This document shows, one piece after another, positions 5,897-13,795 of a stretch of DNA of 13,795 bases; position 1 is the stretch's first letter, and the number at the start of each line of letters is the position of its first letter. The notes beneath the pieces are model-generated. The model was not told the DNA's origin, ran no database searches, and saw nothing but the letters and a program-made list of their open reading frames with translations. The stretch comes from an uncultured Elusimicrobiales bacterium. GTDB taxonomy: Bacteria > Elusimicrobiota > Elusimicrobia > Elusimicrobiales > Elusimicrobiaceae. The stretch lies in contig CAKUDJ010000004.1 in assembly GCA_934644855.1 (NCBI GenBank), positions 1 through 13,795 on the forward strand. Reading direction: 5' to 3'. Both the position numbers and the translations under genes were made by a program.

Positions 5897-7288
5897 TTAC
5901 CAAATATAATACGCCGGGATAAGTACCGCCATGGATAAAGCGATTAAAATAAGTTCCAACTTCATAAACCATTTTACCCATTGGGGGTAAGAAATCCCCG
6001 CCAAGGCCAAAGCGCCCATGGTGACGGGAGCCGTGGGGATAACCGGGTTGCCCCAACCTTCCCCAAACTGATAGGCCAAAATAACCACCTGGCGCGATAC
6101 GCCCACCAAATCCCCCAGCGGAACCATAATCGGCATAGTTAAAACCGCTTGGCCGGAGCCGGAGGCAATAAAAACATTGAGTAGCGTTTGGATGATAAAC
6201 ATAGCTTGCGGAGCCAAAACGGACGGCAACAGCCCGATACTTTTGGTCATGGAGTGCAGGAACGTATCCAAAATATAACCGTTGGCGGCCACAATTACAA
6301 TGGAGCGCGCGAGCGCCATTAAAATACATACGCTTATCATGGATTGCGCCCCGGCAATAATGGCATCCGTGCTTTGGTTTATATTCAGCTTGCCAAAATA
6401 CGCGGCGGCAATCGTCACGCCCAAAAACACAGCGGCAATTTCCGTCATATACCATTGGTATTTGATGATGCCGAAAAACAGGATGCCCATGCCCGCCGCA
6501 AACGAGGCCAACACCAGTTTATGCGCCCGCGTCAGGCGGAAGGATTCGTCCGCCACTACGTCATTAATCACTTGCAGTTCGGCGCGTTTTTCCAAATCCA
6601 TTTTATAGGTTAAGCTTTTGGTCGGGTTTTTGCGGACGCGTTCCCCGTAAATGCTGAAAAAGGCAGCCACTACCGCGGTAAACAAAAACCAAACACCCAG
6701 GCGCAGTTCCCAGCCGGAATACATGGGCAGCTCGGCAATGGTTTGGGCAATACCCACCGTAAACGGGTTGACGAATGCGGAGGAAAACCCCGTAAACGCC
6801 CCGATAAACGGAATGGACATTCCCACCACGGTATCATACCCCAGGGAAATAGCCAACGGGATAAAAATGGGAATAAAAATGAGCGTTTCTTCTTCCATGC
6901 CGAACATCGCCCCGCATAGCGAGAACATAAACATACACGCGGGAATAAAAAACTTACGGTATTGGGGGTGGGTGGAAAATAAACGGCTTATTTTTTTGAT
7001 GACCGTATTAATAGCCCCGGTGCGCTCCAGAACGGTAAATGACGCGCCGACTACTAAAATAAACGCGATAATTTCCGCGCATTGGGTAAAGCCCTCTATG
7101 GGGCTTTTTAATACGCCGATGCCTTGCGGATTGGCGGGTACCTGGTGGTAGGAGCCGGCTTGCACATAGGTTTTGCCGTCTTTTTCCACGCGGTTGTATT
7201 GGCCGGGGGGCACAATCCAGGTCAGCGCCGCCACAAACAACATAATGGCAAAGACCAGGAAATAAGTATTGCACAGCAGTTTTTTCAT
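5897..7288 (-). CDS. yfcC: YfcC/DcuC-family membrane transporter (downstream copy)
   Basis: The 463-residue protein has about 11-12 membrane segments and belongs to the YfcC group of the C4-dicarboxylate anaerobic carrier (DcuC) family. It opens with a membrane helix ending TWIVPPGQY, then a short extracytoplasmic insert with QVPANPQG. Two inverted halves follow, each with a re-entrant motif: AMFGMEEETLIFIPIFIPL and FVNPFTVGIAQ in the first; ASGSGQAVLTMPIMVPLGDL and GNPVIPTAPVTMG in the second. Family members move dicarboxylates or amino acids; some are annotated as arginine/ornithine exchangers. The substrate here is not known. It is a paralogue of the gene just upstream. A possible ribosome binding site, AGAGGA, sits 13 bases from the ATG, an unusually long gap. 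A terminator follows. Confidence 0.87.
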   Translation of the reverse strand: MKKLLCNTYFLVFAIMLFVAALTWIVPPGQYNRVEKDGKTYVQAGSYHQVPANPQGIGVLKSPIEGFTQCAEIIAFILVVGASFTVLERTGAINTVIKKISRLFSTHPQYRKFFIPACMFMFSLCGAMFGMEEETLIFIPIFIPLAISLGYDTVVGMSIPFIGAFTGFSSAFVNPFTVGIAQTIAELPMYSGWELRLGVWFLFTAVVAAFFSIYGERVRKNPTKSLTYKMDLEKRAELQVINDVVADESFRLTRAHKLVLASFAAGMGILFFGIIKYQWYMTEIAAVFLGVTIAAAYFGKLNINQSTDAIIAGAQSMISVCILMALARSIVIVAANGYILDTFLHSMTKSIGLLPSVLAPQAMFIIQTLLNVFIASGSGQAVLTMPIMVPLGDLVGVSRQVVILAYQFGEGWGNPVIPTAPVTMGALALAGISYPQWVKWFMKLELILIALSMAVLIPAYYIW

Positions 7289-7394: not shown

Positions 7395-8861
7395 TTATTG
7401 CCACTTCATTAAATACGGCGGCACCAATAAAGCAAAAGATAATAAATACATCAACACCAGCAGCGGCAACATCCATTTAAGCCACTTGCCGTAGGCAATG
7501 CGGGCAAAACCGATGGCGGCAATCGTCACGGGGTCCGTGGGAATCACCATATTCAGCCAACTGCCCCCCAGTTGGAATGCCAACACCATGGTTTGGCGGG
7601 TAATGCCGATTAAGTCCGCCAGCGGTGCCAAAATGGGCATGGTCAAAACCGCTTTGCCGGAGCCGGACGGGATAAAAAAGTCTATCACCGTTTGCAGCAT
7701 CATGGCCGCCCAAGAAGCGCACACCGGGTGCAAATGTTTAATCAGGCCGGACATATACTCCAGTAGCGTATCCAAAATATGCCCGTTGTTGGCAATCAGC
7801 ACAATGGCCTGCGCAAAGCACAGCAGCATGGCAATTTCCGCCATGCCGCGCACCCCTTCAAAGAATGCGTCGTTAAATTGGCCCATTTTCATACGGCCGA
7901 GGATGGCGCACAAAAAGCCGATACCTAAAAATAAGGCGGCAATTTCCGTAATGTACCAGCCGGTGGCTTCCAAGTGGAGCATTTCCATTAAGTCCACACC
8001 CCACAGGCCTTTAATCATACTGCAAATTTGCGGTTTTAATACACCCACTACTAACCCAACCATACCTAACCCAAAAGCCAAAAGCACCAGTTTTTGGCGG
8101 CGGGTCATGCGGGTTTCTTCTTTGTTGAGTTTCAGCTCTTTGCGTTTTTCAATATCAAAATCATACGTTAAACTGGCTTGCGGATTTTTGCGGATTTTGC
8201 GCGCATAGAAACTTAACCAGGTAATTACAACGCTGGTGCAGATAATCCAAATAATAAAGCGGTAGCCGATGCCGGAATACAACGGCACTTGCGCAATACC
8301 TTGTGCAATACCCACCGTAAACGGGTTGGTAAACGCGGCCGCAAACCCCACACCCGCGCCAATGAACGGAATGGCGGTACCCAGGGCAGAGTCATACCCC
8401 AGGGAAAGCGCCAACGGGATAAAAATAGGGATAAAGATTAGCGCTTCTTCGCACATACCAAAGGTGGCCCCGCAGAGCGAAAAAGTGATAATACCCAAAG
8501 GAATAAACAAAAAGCGCAGTTTGGGGCGGCGTTGGAAAAACGCACTGGCGGCGTGAATCCCGGCGGCGATTGCCCCGGTTTTTTCCACCACGCTTAACAC
8601 CCCGCCGATGACGAGCAGAAACACCACCACTTCCGCCGTGTTGGAAAAACCTTGAATGGGGGCTTTTAATACATCAAACAACCCTTGCGGGTTGGCGGGC
8701 ACCGGGTGATACGTTCCGGCAATTACCACTTGGCGGCCGTCTACATCCATTTTTTCATACGCGCCGCTGGGCACAATCCACGTCATAACGGCTACTACGC
8801 CGATAATGGCCAAAATAATGGCGAATGTGTTTAACTTAATTTTGGATAAAATCCTAGACAT
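7395..8861 (-). CDS. yfcC: YfcC/DcuC-family membrane transporter (promoter-proximal copy)
   Basis: The 488-residue protein is a paralogue of its downstream neighbour, with the same plan and many identical blocks: TWIVPSGAY, PVPANPQG, FSLCGATFGM, IFIPIFIPLALSLGYD, NPFTVGIAQGIAQVPLYSG, KNPQASLTYDFDIEKR and SGSGKAVLTMP. Differences fall in the re-entrant motifs: GMCEEAL for GMEEETL, PSGSGKA for ASGSGQA, and NMVIPTDPVTI for NPVIPTAPVTM. It also has about 20 extra residues around position 280 (MIKGLWGVDLMEML). Such changes could mean a different substrate, or the two halves of an uptake and export pair. The ATG follows AGGAAG by a few bases, and a good promoter lies just upstream at 8889-8917. Confidence 0.87.
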   Translation of the reverse strand: MSRILSKIKLNTFAIILAIIGVVAVMTWIVPSGAYEKMDVDGRQVVIAGTYHPVPANPQGLFDVLKAPIQGFSNTAEVVVFLLVIGGVLSVVEKTGAIAAGIHAASAFFQRRPKLRFLFIPLGIITFSLCGATFGMCEEALIFIPIFIPLALSLGYDSALGTAIPFIGAGVGFAAAFTNPFTVGIAQGIAQVPLYSGIGYRFIIWIICTSVVITWLSFYARKIRKNPQASLTYDFDIEKRKELKLNKEETRMTRRQKLVLLAFGLGMVGLVVGVLKPQICSMIKGLWGVDLMEMLHLEATGWYITEIAALFLGIGFLCAILGRMKMGQFNDAFFEGVRGMAEIAMLLCFAQAIVLIANNGHILDTLLEYMSGLIKHLHPVCASWAAMMLQTVIDFFIPSGSGKAVLTMPILAPLADLIGITRQTMVLAFQLGGSWLNMVIPTDPVTIAAIGFARIAYGKWLKWMLPLLVLMYLLSFALLVPPYLMKWQ

Positions 8862-11368: not shown

Positions 11369-11941
11369 ATGAAAATAAAGATAAATATAGACGGCGGCAG
11401 CCGCGGCAATCCGGGCCCGGGCGCAGCGGCGTATGTCATTTGCAGCCCGGAGGGGAAAATTTTGGCGCAAGAAGGGCATTTTATGCCGCATTGCACCAAC
11501 AACCAGGCCGAATACACCGCCTTAAAATTGGCCCTGATTAAAGCGGGGGAGTTGGGCGCCACGGAATTATTTATCCAATCCGATTCTTTATTACTGGTTA
11601 AGCAGTATTTGGGCGAATATAAAATAAAACACCCGGATTTGGCGGCCCGCATGGCGGTTATACGCAAATTGGCGGCGCGGTTTACTATCCATATCCAACA
11701 CGTTTTGCGCCACTTAAACAAAGCGCCGGACGCCCTGGCAAACAAAGCTATGGATGCCAAGCAATCGTTGGGGTTCAACCCGATTGTCCGCCTGCCGCAA
11801 GACGAAGAAATTTTAACCCCGTCCGCCCCGGATAATAGCGTAAACGGGGTGGAAGTAAAGCCGGTGGTGCGGCAGGAACCGCGCACGCCCGCCAAAAAAA
11901 CCAAAGGGCCCGAGCAGCCGGACTTATTCGGCGGCTTTTAA
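11369..11941 (+). CDS. rnhA: Ribonuclease HI with a C-terminal extension ending in a clamp-binding-like motif
   Basis: RNase HI cuts the RNA strand of RNA-DNA hybrids, for example primers and R-loops. Residues 1-130 form the catalytic domain, with the metal-binding carboxylates Asp8 (in NIDGGSRGNPG), Glu48 (in NNQAEYTAL), Asp72 (in IQSDSLLLVKQ) and Asp121 (in NKAPDALANKA). The pattern resembles the compact single-domain type without the N-terminal hybrid-binding domain. Residues 131-190 form a low-complexity tail rich in Pro, Lys and Val that ends in EQPDLFGGF. QPDLF (183-187) matches the bacterial sliding-clamp-binding consensus QL(S/D)LF at four of five positions. Clamp binding is inference. 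The gene has its own probable promoter and no visible ribosome binding site. Confidence 0.92.
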   Translation: MKIKINIDGGSRGNPGPGAAAYVICSPEGKILAQEGHFMPHCTNNQAEYTALKLALIKAGELGATELFIQSDSLLLVKQYLGEYKIKHPDLAARMAVIRKLAARFTIHIQHVLRHLNKAPDALANKAMDAKQSLGFNPIVRLPQDEEILTPSAPDNSVNGVEVKPVVRQEPRTPAKKTKGPEQPDLFGGF

Positions 11942-11970: not shown

Positions 11971-12316
11971 GATTTACAAACAACCCAGATAACCGCCCCC
12001 GGCCGGTTCCGGCTCCGGGGGAGGAACTTCCGGACTCCACAAGGCAGTGCGCCGCTTGAAAAGGCGGGACGGCGGGGCCATATCCCCGTTGGACGGAAAG
12101 TGCAACAGAAAGTATACCGCCCGCAAGGGTAAGGGTGAAATGGCGGGGTAAGAGCCCGCCGCATAGCCGGCAACGGCTATGGCACGGTAAACCCCGCATG
12201 GAGCAAGGCCAAGCCGGTCCACACGCTGCCCGCGTTCGTGACCAAGTAGGCCGCTTAGAGTAATGGTTATCACAGCCCGCAAGGGTTGACAGAATCTGGG
12301 GTATCGGTTGTTTGTG
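11971..12316 (+). ncRNA. rnpB: RNase P RNA (catalytic RNA of ribonuclease P)
   Basis: This ribozyme removes the 5' leader of precursor tRNAs. Helices found by pairing: P1 (11976-11985 with 12306-12315, ten perfect pairs), P2 (11988-11994 with 12265-12271), a G/C-rich P3, P4 (12026-12034 with 12295-12302), P8 with a GAAA loop, P13 (12142-12147 with 12155-12160), P14 with a GCAA loop (12162-12181) and P19 (12274-12287). Conserved segments AGTGCAACAGAAAG, TAAGGGTGAAA, GGTAAGAG, GGCACGGTAAAC, GGAGCAAGGCCAA and GACAGAA are intact, and the CCA-binding GGT of loop L15 is present near 12215-12217. Odd points: changed P4 pairs, a P12 stub and no P18. Compensated pairing and intact core segments argue for a working gene. 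Confidence 0.96.
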
Positions 12317-12350
12317 GCCCGTGTTCCCTTTGGGGGCGCGGGTCTTTTTT
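12317..12350 (+). terminator. Rho-independent terminator of rnpB
   Basis: A 12-pair stem with some G-T wobbles (12317-12328 with 12332-12343) and a TTT loop is followed by C and six T. It begins one base after the end of P1. Confidence 0.9.
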
Positions 12351-12360
12351 ATTTGCGCCT

Positions 12361-12456: not shown

Positions 12457-13795
12457 TTACACAAGCCCTTGGTCAATCATGGCATCCGCCACTTTTTTGA
12501 ATCCGAAGATGTTGGCCCCGGCCATATAATCCCCGGGCATCCCGTACATGGCGGCGGCTTCCAAACAGTTTTGGTGAATACTGTTCATAATGCGTTGGAG
12601 GTATTTTTCCACTTCTTCGCGGGTCCAATATACGCGCATACTGTTTTGGGTCATTTCCAGGCCGGATACCGCCACCCCGCCCGCGTTGGACGCTTTACCG
12701 GGGGAATACAACAGTTTGGCCGCTTTAATGCGCTCTATCGCTTCCGGCGTGCAGGGCATATTGGAGCCTTCGCAAACGCCTTTACAACCGTTATCAATCA
12801 GCAGTTGGGCGTCCTGCCCGTCCAGTTCGTTTTCGCACGCGGTGGGAAAAGCGTAATCGCACGGAATATCCCACGTTTTTTTGCCGGGCCTAAAGTGGGC
12901 CCCGGGGAATTTTTTGTCGTAATCTTTCAAACTGCCCCGGCGCACAAATACTAAATCTTTCAGGTACGCCAGGCTATCTTCGTCTATGCCGTGTTCGTCG
13001 TAAATACTGCCGTCATAGTCCATGAGCCCCACCACTTTGGCCCCCAGTTGGGTCAGCTTTTCCATGGCGTAAATGCCCACGTTGCCCGCGCCGGAAATAA
13101 TGCACGTTTTGCCCTCTAAACTATCGCCTTTGTGGCGCAGCATTTCTTGCGCGAAATACGCCACCCCGTAGCCGGTGGCTTCCGGGCGCAAAAGGCTGCC
13201 GCCCCAGTTGGGTTTTTTACCCGTAAACGCGCCGGTAAAATCGTTCGTCAGTTTTTTGTACTGGCCGAACATATAGCCGATTTCCCGCGCCCCGCAGCCT
13301 AAATCTCCGGCGGGGATGTCGGTATGATAGCCGATATGGTGGTAAAGTTCGTTAATAAAAGAATGGCAAAAACGCATGACTTCGCTGTCCGTTTTGCCGC
13401 GGGTGTCAAAATCGCTGCCGCCCTTTCCGCCGCCCAGCGGGAGCGTGGTTAAACTGTTTTTGAACACTTGTTCAAACCCTAAAAATTTCAGCACGTCCTG
13501 GTTGACGGTGGCGTGGAAACGCATACCGCCTTTATACGGCCCCAAGGCGCTGTTGTATTGCACGCGGAAACCGCGGTTGACGTGAATTTCACCCTTGTCA
13601 TCTTGCCACGGCACACGGAAAATAATGGTGCGTTCCGGCTCTACAATGCGCTCCAAAATACGTTCTTTCATATATTTGGGGTTTTGTTGTAAAACGGGCG
13701 TGAGGGTAGAAACTACTTCCTGCACGGCTTGATGAAATACTCTTTGGGCGGGGTCTTTTTGAATTAAATTTTCCAAAAACTGCGCGGTATAAGCG
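12457..13795 (-). CDS. gdhA: Glutamate dehydrogenase (GdhA type, hexameric; 5' end outside the window)
   Basis: The enzyme interconverts glutamate and 2-oxoglutarate plus ammonia with NAD(P)H. About 445 residues are visible, nearly the whole of a roughly 445-450 residue family I enzyme. Motifs: RGFRVQYNSALGPYKGGMRF with the substrate-binding Lys, LPLGGGKGGSDFD with the catalytic-site Lys, DIPAGDLGCGAREIGYMFGQYKKL with the catalytic Asp, RPEATGYGVAYF, and the nucleotide-binding GAGNVGIYAMEKL. Coenzyme choice is not clear, although similarity is closest to NADP-type GdhA. An in-frame TTG at 13776 could look like a start, but the frame stays open to the edge (AYTAQFLENLIQ) and matches the family N-terminus, so the true start lies beyond the window. 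The gene faces rnpB and ends in a terminator. Confidence 0.95.
   Translation of the reverse strand, partial: AYTAQFLENLIQKDPAQRVFHQAVQEVVSTLTPVLQQNPKYMKERILERIVEPERTIIFRVPWQDDKGEIHVNRGFRVQYNSALGPYKGGMRFHATVNQDVLKFLGFEQVFKNSLTTLPLGGGKGGSDFDTRGKTDSEVMRFCHSFINELYHHIGYHTDIPAGDLGCGAREIGYMFGQYKKLTNDFTGAFTGKKPNWGGSLLRPEATGYGVAYFAQEMLRHKGDSLEGKTCIISGAGNVGIYAMEKLTQLGAKVVGLMDYDGSIYDEHGIDEDSLAYLKDLVFVRRGSLKDYDKKFPGAHFRPGKKTWDIPCDYAFPTACENELDGQDAQLLIDNGCKGVCEGSNMPCTPEAIERIKAAKLLYSPGKASNAGGVAVSGLEMTQNSMRVYWTREEVEKYLQRIMNSIHQNCLEAAAMYGMPGDYMAGANIFGFKKVADAMIDQGLV

Follow-up and report, generated by a model that had tools for sequence, protein, structure and literature searches.

Exchanged base pairs beside the bulged uridine in helix P4 of RNase P RNA from Elusimicrobiota

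Introduction

In a bacterium of the phylum Elusimicrobiota, the RNase P RNA carries exchanged base pairs at two positions of helix P4, 67/359 and 68/358, next to the bulged uridine of the catalytic core. This core is very probably that of a working variant and not the product of an error, and it is shared with near relatives and with unrelated bifidobacteria. From sequence comparison, we regard this RNase P as the usual two-metal enzyme, whose active site the exchange in P4 would leave intact, with a probability of about 0.85.

In one account, 11 of the 21 universally conserved nucleotides of RNase P RNA lie in P4 (PMC4919922). From structural work and rescue experiments, the ligands of the catalytic metals are described as the phosphates of A67 and G68 and O4 of U69 (PMC9433436), the corresponding nucleotides being A50, G51 and U52 in Thermotoga maritima (T. 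maritima) numbering (PMC4919922). With Mg2+ coordinated by the two phosphates at 67 and 68 and the O4 atom of the bulged uridine, these ligands would be independent of the base letters at pairs 67 and 68, and for this reason the active site could, helix shape aside, stay intact after an exchange. Both pairs would then be exchangeable as long as the helix and the bulged U persist, and would have drifted from the form usual in bacteria, with no change in A66-U360, U69 or C70-G357. In the large clade that includes the bacterium studied here, the exchange would have become fixed as C67-G359/U68·G358, and in several sub-lineages as C67-G359/C68-G358. The literature that we searched, which did not extend to older key papers and so does not establish absence from print, describes no variation at 67/359 or 68/358 for Elusimicrobiota or bifidobacteria.

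The RNase P RNA gene and its helix P4

The window, which is the whole stretch of 13,795 nucleotides analysed here, contains what is by its RF00010 match a complete class A RNase P RNA gene (rnpB), presumably the housekeeping gene of this member of the Elusimicrobiota (Table 1). Its score of 202.9 bits was reached across the whole model, for which the gathering score is 100. Like Escherichia coli (E. coli) M1 RNA and the RF00010 class A model, the RNA has conserved core segments and a bulged U in P4 as well as the full-length match; the protein subunit RnpA is present in 227 of 244 genomes of the phylum. It differs from M1 RNA at C67-G359 and U68·G358, at G72·U355, and in L15, where AGU stands in place of GGU. 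Elsewhere in the window, a large membrane transporter gene (5897-7288, minus strand) has its best match in the YfcC family, under the cut-off of that family, and the neighbouring gene (7395-8861, minus strand) resembles it by eye, perhaps as a result of tandem duplication.

Position numbers for P4 follow E. coli and were counted along what we take to be the E. coli sequence. The core 5′ strand, GAGGAACTTCCGGACTC, begins at 12021 by direct reading, with A66 at 12026, C67 at 12027, U68 at 12028, U69 at 12029, C70 at 12030 and A74 at 12034; on the 3′ strand, U353 lies at 12295, C354 at 12296, U355 at 12297, G356-G359 at 12298-12301 and U360 at 12302. The RF00010 alignment assigns identical bases of the window to the P4 positions of the model, and the letters and coordinates of an earlier, sequence-only reading of this DNA are correct.

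The two strands pair as A66-U360, C67-G359, U68·G358, C70-G357, C71-G356, G72·U355, G73-C354 and A74-U353, with U69 drawn as the bulge. Each of the eight pairs is of the standard or wobble kind; one U is left over, and its register (U68 or U69) is ambiguous. Compared with the usual P4, A67-U359 is replaced by C67-G359, G68-C358 by U68·G358, G74-C353 by A74-U353 and G72-C355 by G72·U355. The sequence-only reading had listed the changes at A67, G68 and G74 as matched on the opposite strand, which the eight pairs confirm, and the change of G72-C355 is to be added to its list. The letters A67 G68 / C358 U359, which are a consensus feature of P4 and not a definition of it, are absent, and C67 U68 / G358 G359 are found instead.

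Table 1. Features of the window, and candidate protein-only RNase P genes in two other genomes of the phylum. Positions are those of the window unless a locus is named.
Feature	Position	Strand	Basis
Ribonuclease H-like ORF, adjoining rnpB	11369-11941	+	Matches under curated cut-offs
rnpB, RNase P RNA, bacterial class A	11976-12319	+	RF00010, 202.9 bits, E 6.1e-65, model 1-367
P4 5′ strand ACUUCCGGA (E. coli 66-74)	12026-12034	+	Sequence; RF00010 alignment; MAFFT alignment
Exchanged bases C67, U68; partners G359 (12301), G358 (12300)	12027-12028	+	Sequence; relatives
U68-U69 run, either U a possible single P4 bulge	12028-12029	+	ViennaRNA, P4 model hairpin
L15 segment AAGU (RF00010 consensus GGGU)	12244-12247	+	RF00010 alignment; relatives
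J18/2, AGAGUAAUG (RF00010 consensus AGAUGAAUG)	12255-12266	+	RF00010 alignment
P4 3′ strand UCUGGGGU (E. coli 353-360)	12295-12302	+	Sequence; RF00010 alignment; MAFFT alignment
Intrinsic-terminator-like hairpin and T-rich tail at rnpB end	12316-12354	+	Consensus scan
NADP-specific glutamate dehydrogenase gene, adjoining rnpB	12457-13776	-	Match above cut-off
HARP candidate, genome G174	L366:589-1215	+	TIGR03875, about 183 bits
HARP candidate, genome G075	L367:601-1188	-	TIGR03875, about 183 bits

Variation of P4 within the phylum

RF00010 matches are present in 222 of 247 Elusimicrobiota genomes, and a renewed search of eight of the 25 match-less genomes with laxer filters returned no RF00010 match. 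One stretch was taken for each of the 222 genomes, plus L127 (from G005). P4 states were counted over 217 genomes in which both strands could be read, a sample that excludes the 25 match-less genomes, the window and six outgroup rows. Left out were L252 and L364 (incomplete, with no 3′ strand), L337, L341 and L342 (not reliably placed) and also L231, whose 3′ strand could not be placed; L343, a second match in the genome of L329, and L365, a duplicate of L128, were not counted. In the MAFFT alignment, P4 occupies the same columns in 224 of 225 rows.

Within the phylum, forms of P4 range from the standard to the fully swapped helix. Written as positions 66-69/358-360, the states in the 217 genomes are ACUU/GGU, the core of the window (110), AAGU/UGU (66), the standard AAGU/CUU (24) and ACCU/GGU (9), with AAUU/GGU (3), AAAU/AGU (2), AAAU/GGU (1), AAGU/GGU (1) and ACUU/AGU (1) as minor forms. 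The paired changes looked for in related rnpB genes are therefore found in about half of them, and the 12 nearest rnpB of this set (alignment identity 80-85%), where a standard P4 would have spoken for read errors, all have the same core. A pattern search of the G001 class matched 196 of 235 genomes, and AAGU, AAUU, ACUU and ACCU occur side by side among the matches listed.

Pair 67/359 is C-G in 120 genomes, A-U in 24 and an A·G mismatch in 73, which shows, as far as these sequences go, a tolerance for loss of Watson-Crick pairing at this position. The changes are therefore uncompensated in a third of the phylum, which speaks against strict compensation everywhere. At 68/358, 213 of the 217 have a standard or wobble pair, of five types (GC 24, GU 66, UG 113, CG 9, UA 1). 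When the 3′ column was shuffled 500 times, a procedure that ignores sequence relatedness, the mean was 110 and the maximum 128; on the tree described below, each of the two bases of this pair has changed no fewer than 11 times. A66-U360, U69 and C70-G357 are identical in 217 of 217, figures that are partly selected because the search template favoured U69, C70, C71 and G72. Pairs 72 to 74, at the far end of P4, are variable as well, in an ordinary paired manner. From these counts, the drift appears concentrated in pairs 67/359 and 68/358, just 5′ of the bulge.

Many of the AAGU/UGU rnpB score weakly in RF00010, at about 67-132 bits (for example L240, L268 and L303), and have a changed specificity domain. 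At least 39 of the 66 AAGU/UGU rows have AGGTGCGA as their CR-III segment, and the CR-II segment is unaligned; the AAGU/UGU rows L148, L157, L158, L181 and L213 score 182-217 bits. The weakly scoring forms are perhaps an undescribed structural subtype.

Occurrence in other bacteria and evolutionary origin

Species-representative genomes were scanned for the 5′ strand only, with a pattern that fixed C67 U68, which yielded at least 120 loci: at least 73 bifidobacterial, at least 41 of Elusimicrobiota type (L042, L063, L083, L104, L117 and L120 being grouped here on their 5′ strand) and at least six others. The matching 3′ strand is present in every readable listed locus, 69 of 69 bifidobacterial and 39 of 39 of Elusimicrobiota type, four and two incomplete loci respectively being excluded; it ends in the CCGGGGTA, TCGGGGTA or CTGGGGTA form in 108 of the 108 readable among 114 listed loci. 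The six other loci have no RF00010 match, and five of them have no such 3′ strand; the sixth, L092, ends too early, and rnpB is found at another position in that genome, with a 5′ strand of the standard form. Taxon names (phylum, class, order) of the genome groups were each inferred from one locus.

The bifidobacterial rnpB come from Bifidobacteriaceae (Bifidobacterium, Gardnerella, Scardovia, Alloscardovia, Aeriscardovia and Bombiscardovia), and their letters at 66-73 and 356-360 are the same as in the window in 69 of the 69 testable among the loci listed. They differ from the window in having G74-C353 and C355, and in that C67-G359/G68-C358 is common in their order. The P4 pattern was found in 146 of 149 genomes of this order (that of genome G007), where the matches listed have mainly C67 G68 or A67 G68, with at least 11 C67 U68 rows (counted by eye); C358 G359 accompanied C67 G68 at all ten of the C67 G68 loci inspected. 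The core of the Bifidobacteriaceae thus most likely arose, on sequence, from C67-G359/G68-C358. Apparently it was reached independently of the Elusimicrobiota, by convergence, because the rnpB of the two groups are not specially alike: identity to the window rnpB is 72.1% for the bifidobacterial L121, compared with 73.6% for a standard-P4 rnpB of the Myxococcota. The genome of a Myxococcota locus (L106, in G399) has two full-length RF00010 matches of 305.6 and 303 bits (L296 and L301), both with standard P4, which are either two rnpB genes or a sign of a mixed assembly.

In three other phyla, A67 G68 was found in 227 of 228 matches (Planctomycetota side, 64 of 64; Bacillota side, 104 of 105; Verrucomicrobiota/Lentisphaeria side, 59 of 59), the matches being those genomes (64 of 144, 105 of 144 and 59 of 140) that fit a fixed pattern with U69. 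The change at G74, which had been put forward as notable, is ordinary, as A74 occurs in 58 of the 59 Verrucomicrobiota/Lentisphaeria-side matches (counted by eye). Of the changes at positions described as near-invariant, it is the exchange of G68-C358 that is rare in this sample, since C67 is often seen in the bifidobacterial order.

A maximum-likelihood tree of 224 rows, computed with the P4 columns removed, needs at least 17 changes of P4 state. The 120 rows with the ACUU/GGU or ACCU/GGU states, the window among them, make up one group (support 66/52), and the same group plus one AAGU/UGU sister row, 121 rows in all, has support 96/81. Standard forms are found towards the base of each of the two main arms, and the ACUU/GGU group contains no fewer than five separate origins of the C68 form (ACCU/GGU). 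A route from AAGU/CUU through AAGU/UGU to ACUU/GGU would be among the most parsimonious, with others equal and the ancestor sets ambiguous. In reading this tree, it is to be noted that L299 (Lentisphaeria), taken as an outgroup, falls inside the Elusimicrobiota, that L132, counted as standard, groups with the outgroups and is possibly a mis-binned contig, and that the standard rows L267, L310 and L321 lie inside an AAGU/UGU group and may be reversals.

The L15 loop and J18/2

The L15 loop of the window (12240-12252) contains CAAGU, compared with CGGGU in the consensus; the GGU for tRNA 3′-RCCA is absent, and AGU is found at 12245-12247. The L15 GGU is missing in other bacteria too. Three tRNA genes lie near the 41 listed rnpB loci of Elusimicrobiota type (one at L008, two at L055), and none of them encodes CCA. 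J18/2 is variable in sequence across the Elusimicrobiota; when P4 state was compared with L15 or J18/2 sequence in the phylum, both were seen to vary with no clean association, as judged without statistics. A role of G292-U294 in L15 is given in a figure legend (PMC9433436).

Register of the bulge

The sequence-only reading had stated that the bulged U69 is kept. A single bulged U does remain, but the window alone does not decide between U68 and U69: in ViennaRNA folding of a P4 model hairpin (25 nucleotides), the probabilities of U68 and U69 being unpaired are 0.50/0.50 for the window and for the bifidobacterial form. The two are equivalent because either U can pair with G358 where C67-U68-U69-C70 lies opposite G357-G358-G359. 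U69 is predicted to be unpaired with a probability of 0.97-0.98 in the standard, ACCU and actinobacterial ACGU forms. Among the mismatched intermediates, the isolated hairpins have U69 predicted as paired in AAUU/GGU (probability unpaired 0.01) and AAAU/GGU (0.04), and the AAGU/UGU hairpin opens at 67-69; these odd folds may be due to shortcomings of the model or may be genuine.

An E. coli laboratory mutant, C70U, resembles the window in having two adjacent Us of which either can bulge, with predicted values of 0.49/0.50 for U69/U70. It differs in that its run is U69-U70 and its cleavage slow in Mg2+, whereas the run in the window is U68-U69 and natural. C70U was selected for cleavage in Ca2+, where its kc is like that of the wild type (PMC11221534). 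In Mg2+, its kc is strongly reduced, from 0.017 to 0.0005 per second (34-fold) in the table of that source, the text of which speaks of 'ca. 250-fold' (PMC11221534). A degenerate bulge therefore need not be harmless.

Alternative readings of the P4 core

Errors in sequencing or assembly, or decay of a second gene copy, have next to no probability as the source of the unusual letters. A second RF00010 match is listed in six of the 222 Elusimicrobiota genomes (G009, G165, G176, G213, G220 and G242), of which that in G165 has a P4 state equal to its first and that in G009 is weak, at 18.7 bits. The error reading has to contend with the same core in many independent assemblies and bifidobacterial isolate genomes, and with the joint change of both strands; moreover, the genomes of eight relatives (six Elusimicrobiota, two bifidobacteria) each have one RF00010 match, and not the second, standard rnpB that the sequence-only reading had set against a working variant. 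Its proposal of a functional variant is thus preferred over decay or error, because of the 110 of 217 genomes in the phylum and the bifidobacterial isolates that share the core. It is also very unlikely that selection on P4 was relaxed and the helix drifted since a protein-only RNase P (HARP) took over tRNA 5′ processing. HARP does occur in the phylum, above the cut-off in two of 244 genomes; the other 242 are all under it, seven of them with weak partial matches far under it. The remaining P4 is nearly invariant, and the two HARP genomes, G174 and G075, both fragmented, have no RF00010, P4-pattern or RnpA match. HARP takeover is accordingly rejected as a general cause, and these two genomes possibly form a HARP-only lineage in the G001 class. 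Named HARP-only groups include Aquificae, Nitrospirae and unclassified groups (PMC6380272), and Elusimicrobia do not appear in a published list of HARP phyla (PMC10941002). Movement of the core by gene transfer between bifidobacteria and Elusimicrobiota, some members of both living in animal guts, would account for the identical letters at 66-73 and 356-360; it is just as improbable, since the window rnpB is no closer to its bifidobacterial counterpart than to that of the Myxococcota, groundwater Elusimicrobia also have the core (L017, L046), and the two groups differ at pair 74/353 and in neighbouring states. Transfer from bifidobacteria was rejected on rnpB identity alone.

A doubtful but more serious possibility is that the bulged U migrates by one nucleotide between U68 and U69, so that the window would have a dynamic metal site, with an altered metal preference or a stronger dependence on RnpA, and its core would be a natural counterpart of C70U. 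The evenly divided folding probabilities of the window, the bifidobacteria and C70U, as against those of the fixed forms, are consistent with such migration, as are the selection of C70U in Ca2+ and its lowered rate in Mg2+ (PMC11221534), and the degenerate core is retained by half of the sampled phylum and by bifidobacteria. However, nearest-neighbour energies of a short hairpin ignore tertiary contacts, protein and metals, and nine C68 relatives, from at least five places in the tree, are predicted to bulge U69 alone. These relatives suggest that the ordinary register, U69, is the one in use, and favour tertiary contacts that would fix U69, with no cost of the C70U kind. The two-metal enzyme with an intact active site is our preferred reading; that the RNA is active, that U69 is its bulge and that its metal preference is unchanged are all things that we infer.

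Conclusions

For the two pairs adjacent to the bulge, the Elusimicrobiota offer a series of natural mutants, running from the standard through A·G/G·U, A·G/U·G and C-G/U·G to C-G/C-G. This series separates the apparent needs of the active site (U69, pairs 66 and 70, and the helix) from letters that are merely usual (pairs 67 and 68). Probes based on GAGGAAAGTCC miss whole groups. Since our scan fixed C67 U68 and its counts are lower bounds, further lineages or variants with altered P4 may exist.

With these natural RNAs, the necessity of a fixed bulge register becomes directly testable. An unfixed register is otherwise known to us only from the slow laboratory mutant of E. coli. In a bolder version, which we hold to be somewhat less probable again than migration of the bulge in the window, two unrelated groups would have settled on an RNase P without a fixed register, a metal-site switch with a changed Mg2+/Ca2+ preference or more reliance on protein, and the phylum would preserve the intermediates of this rewiring, A67·G359 included.
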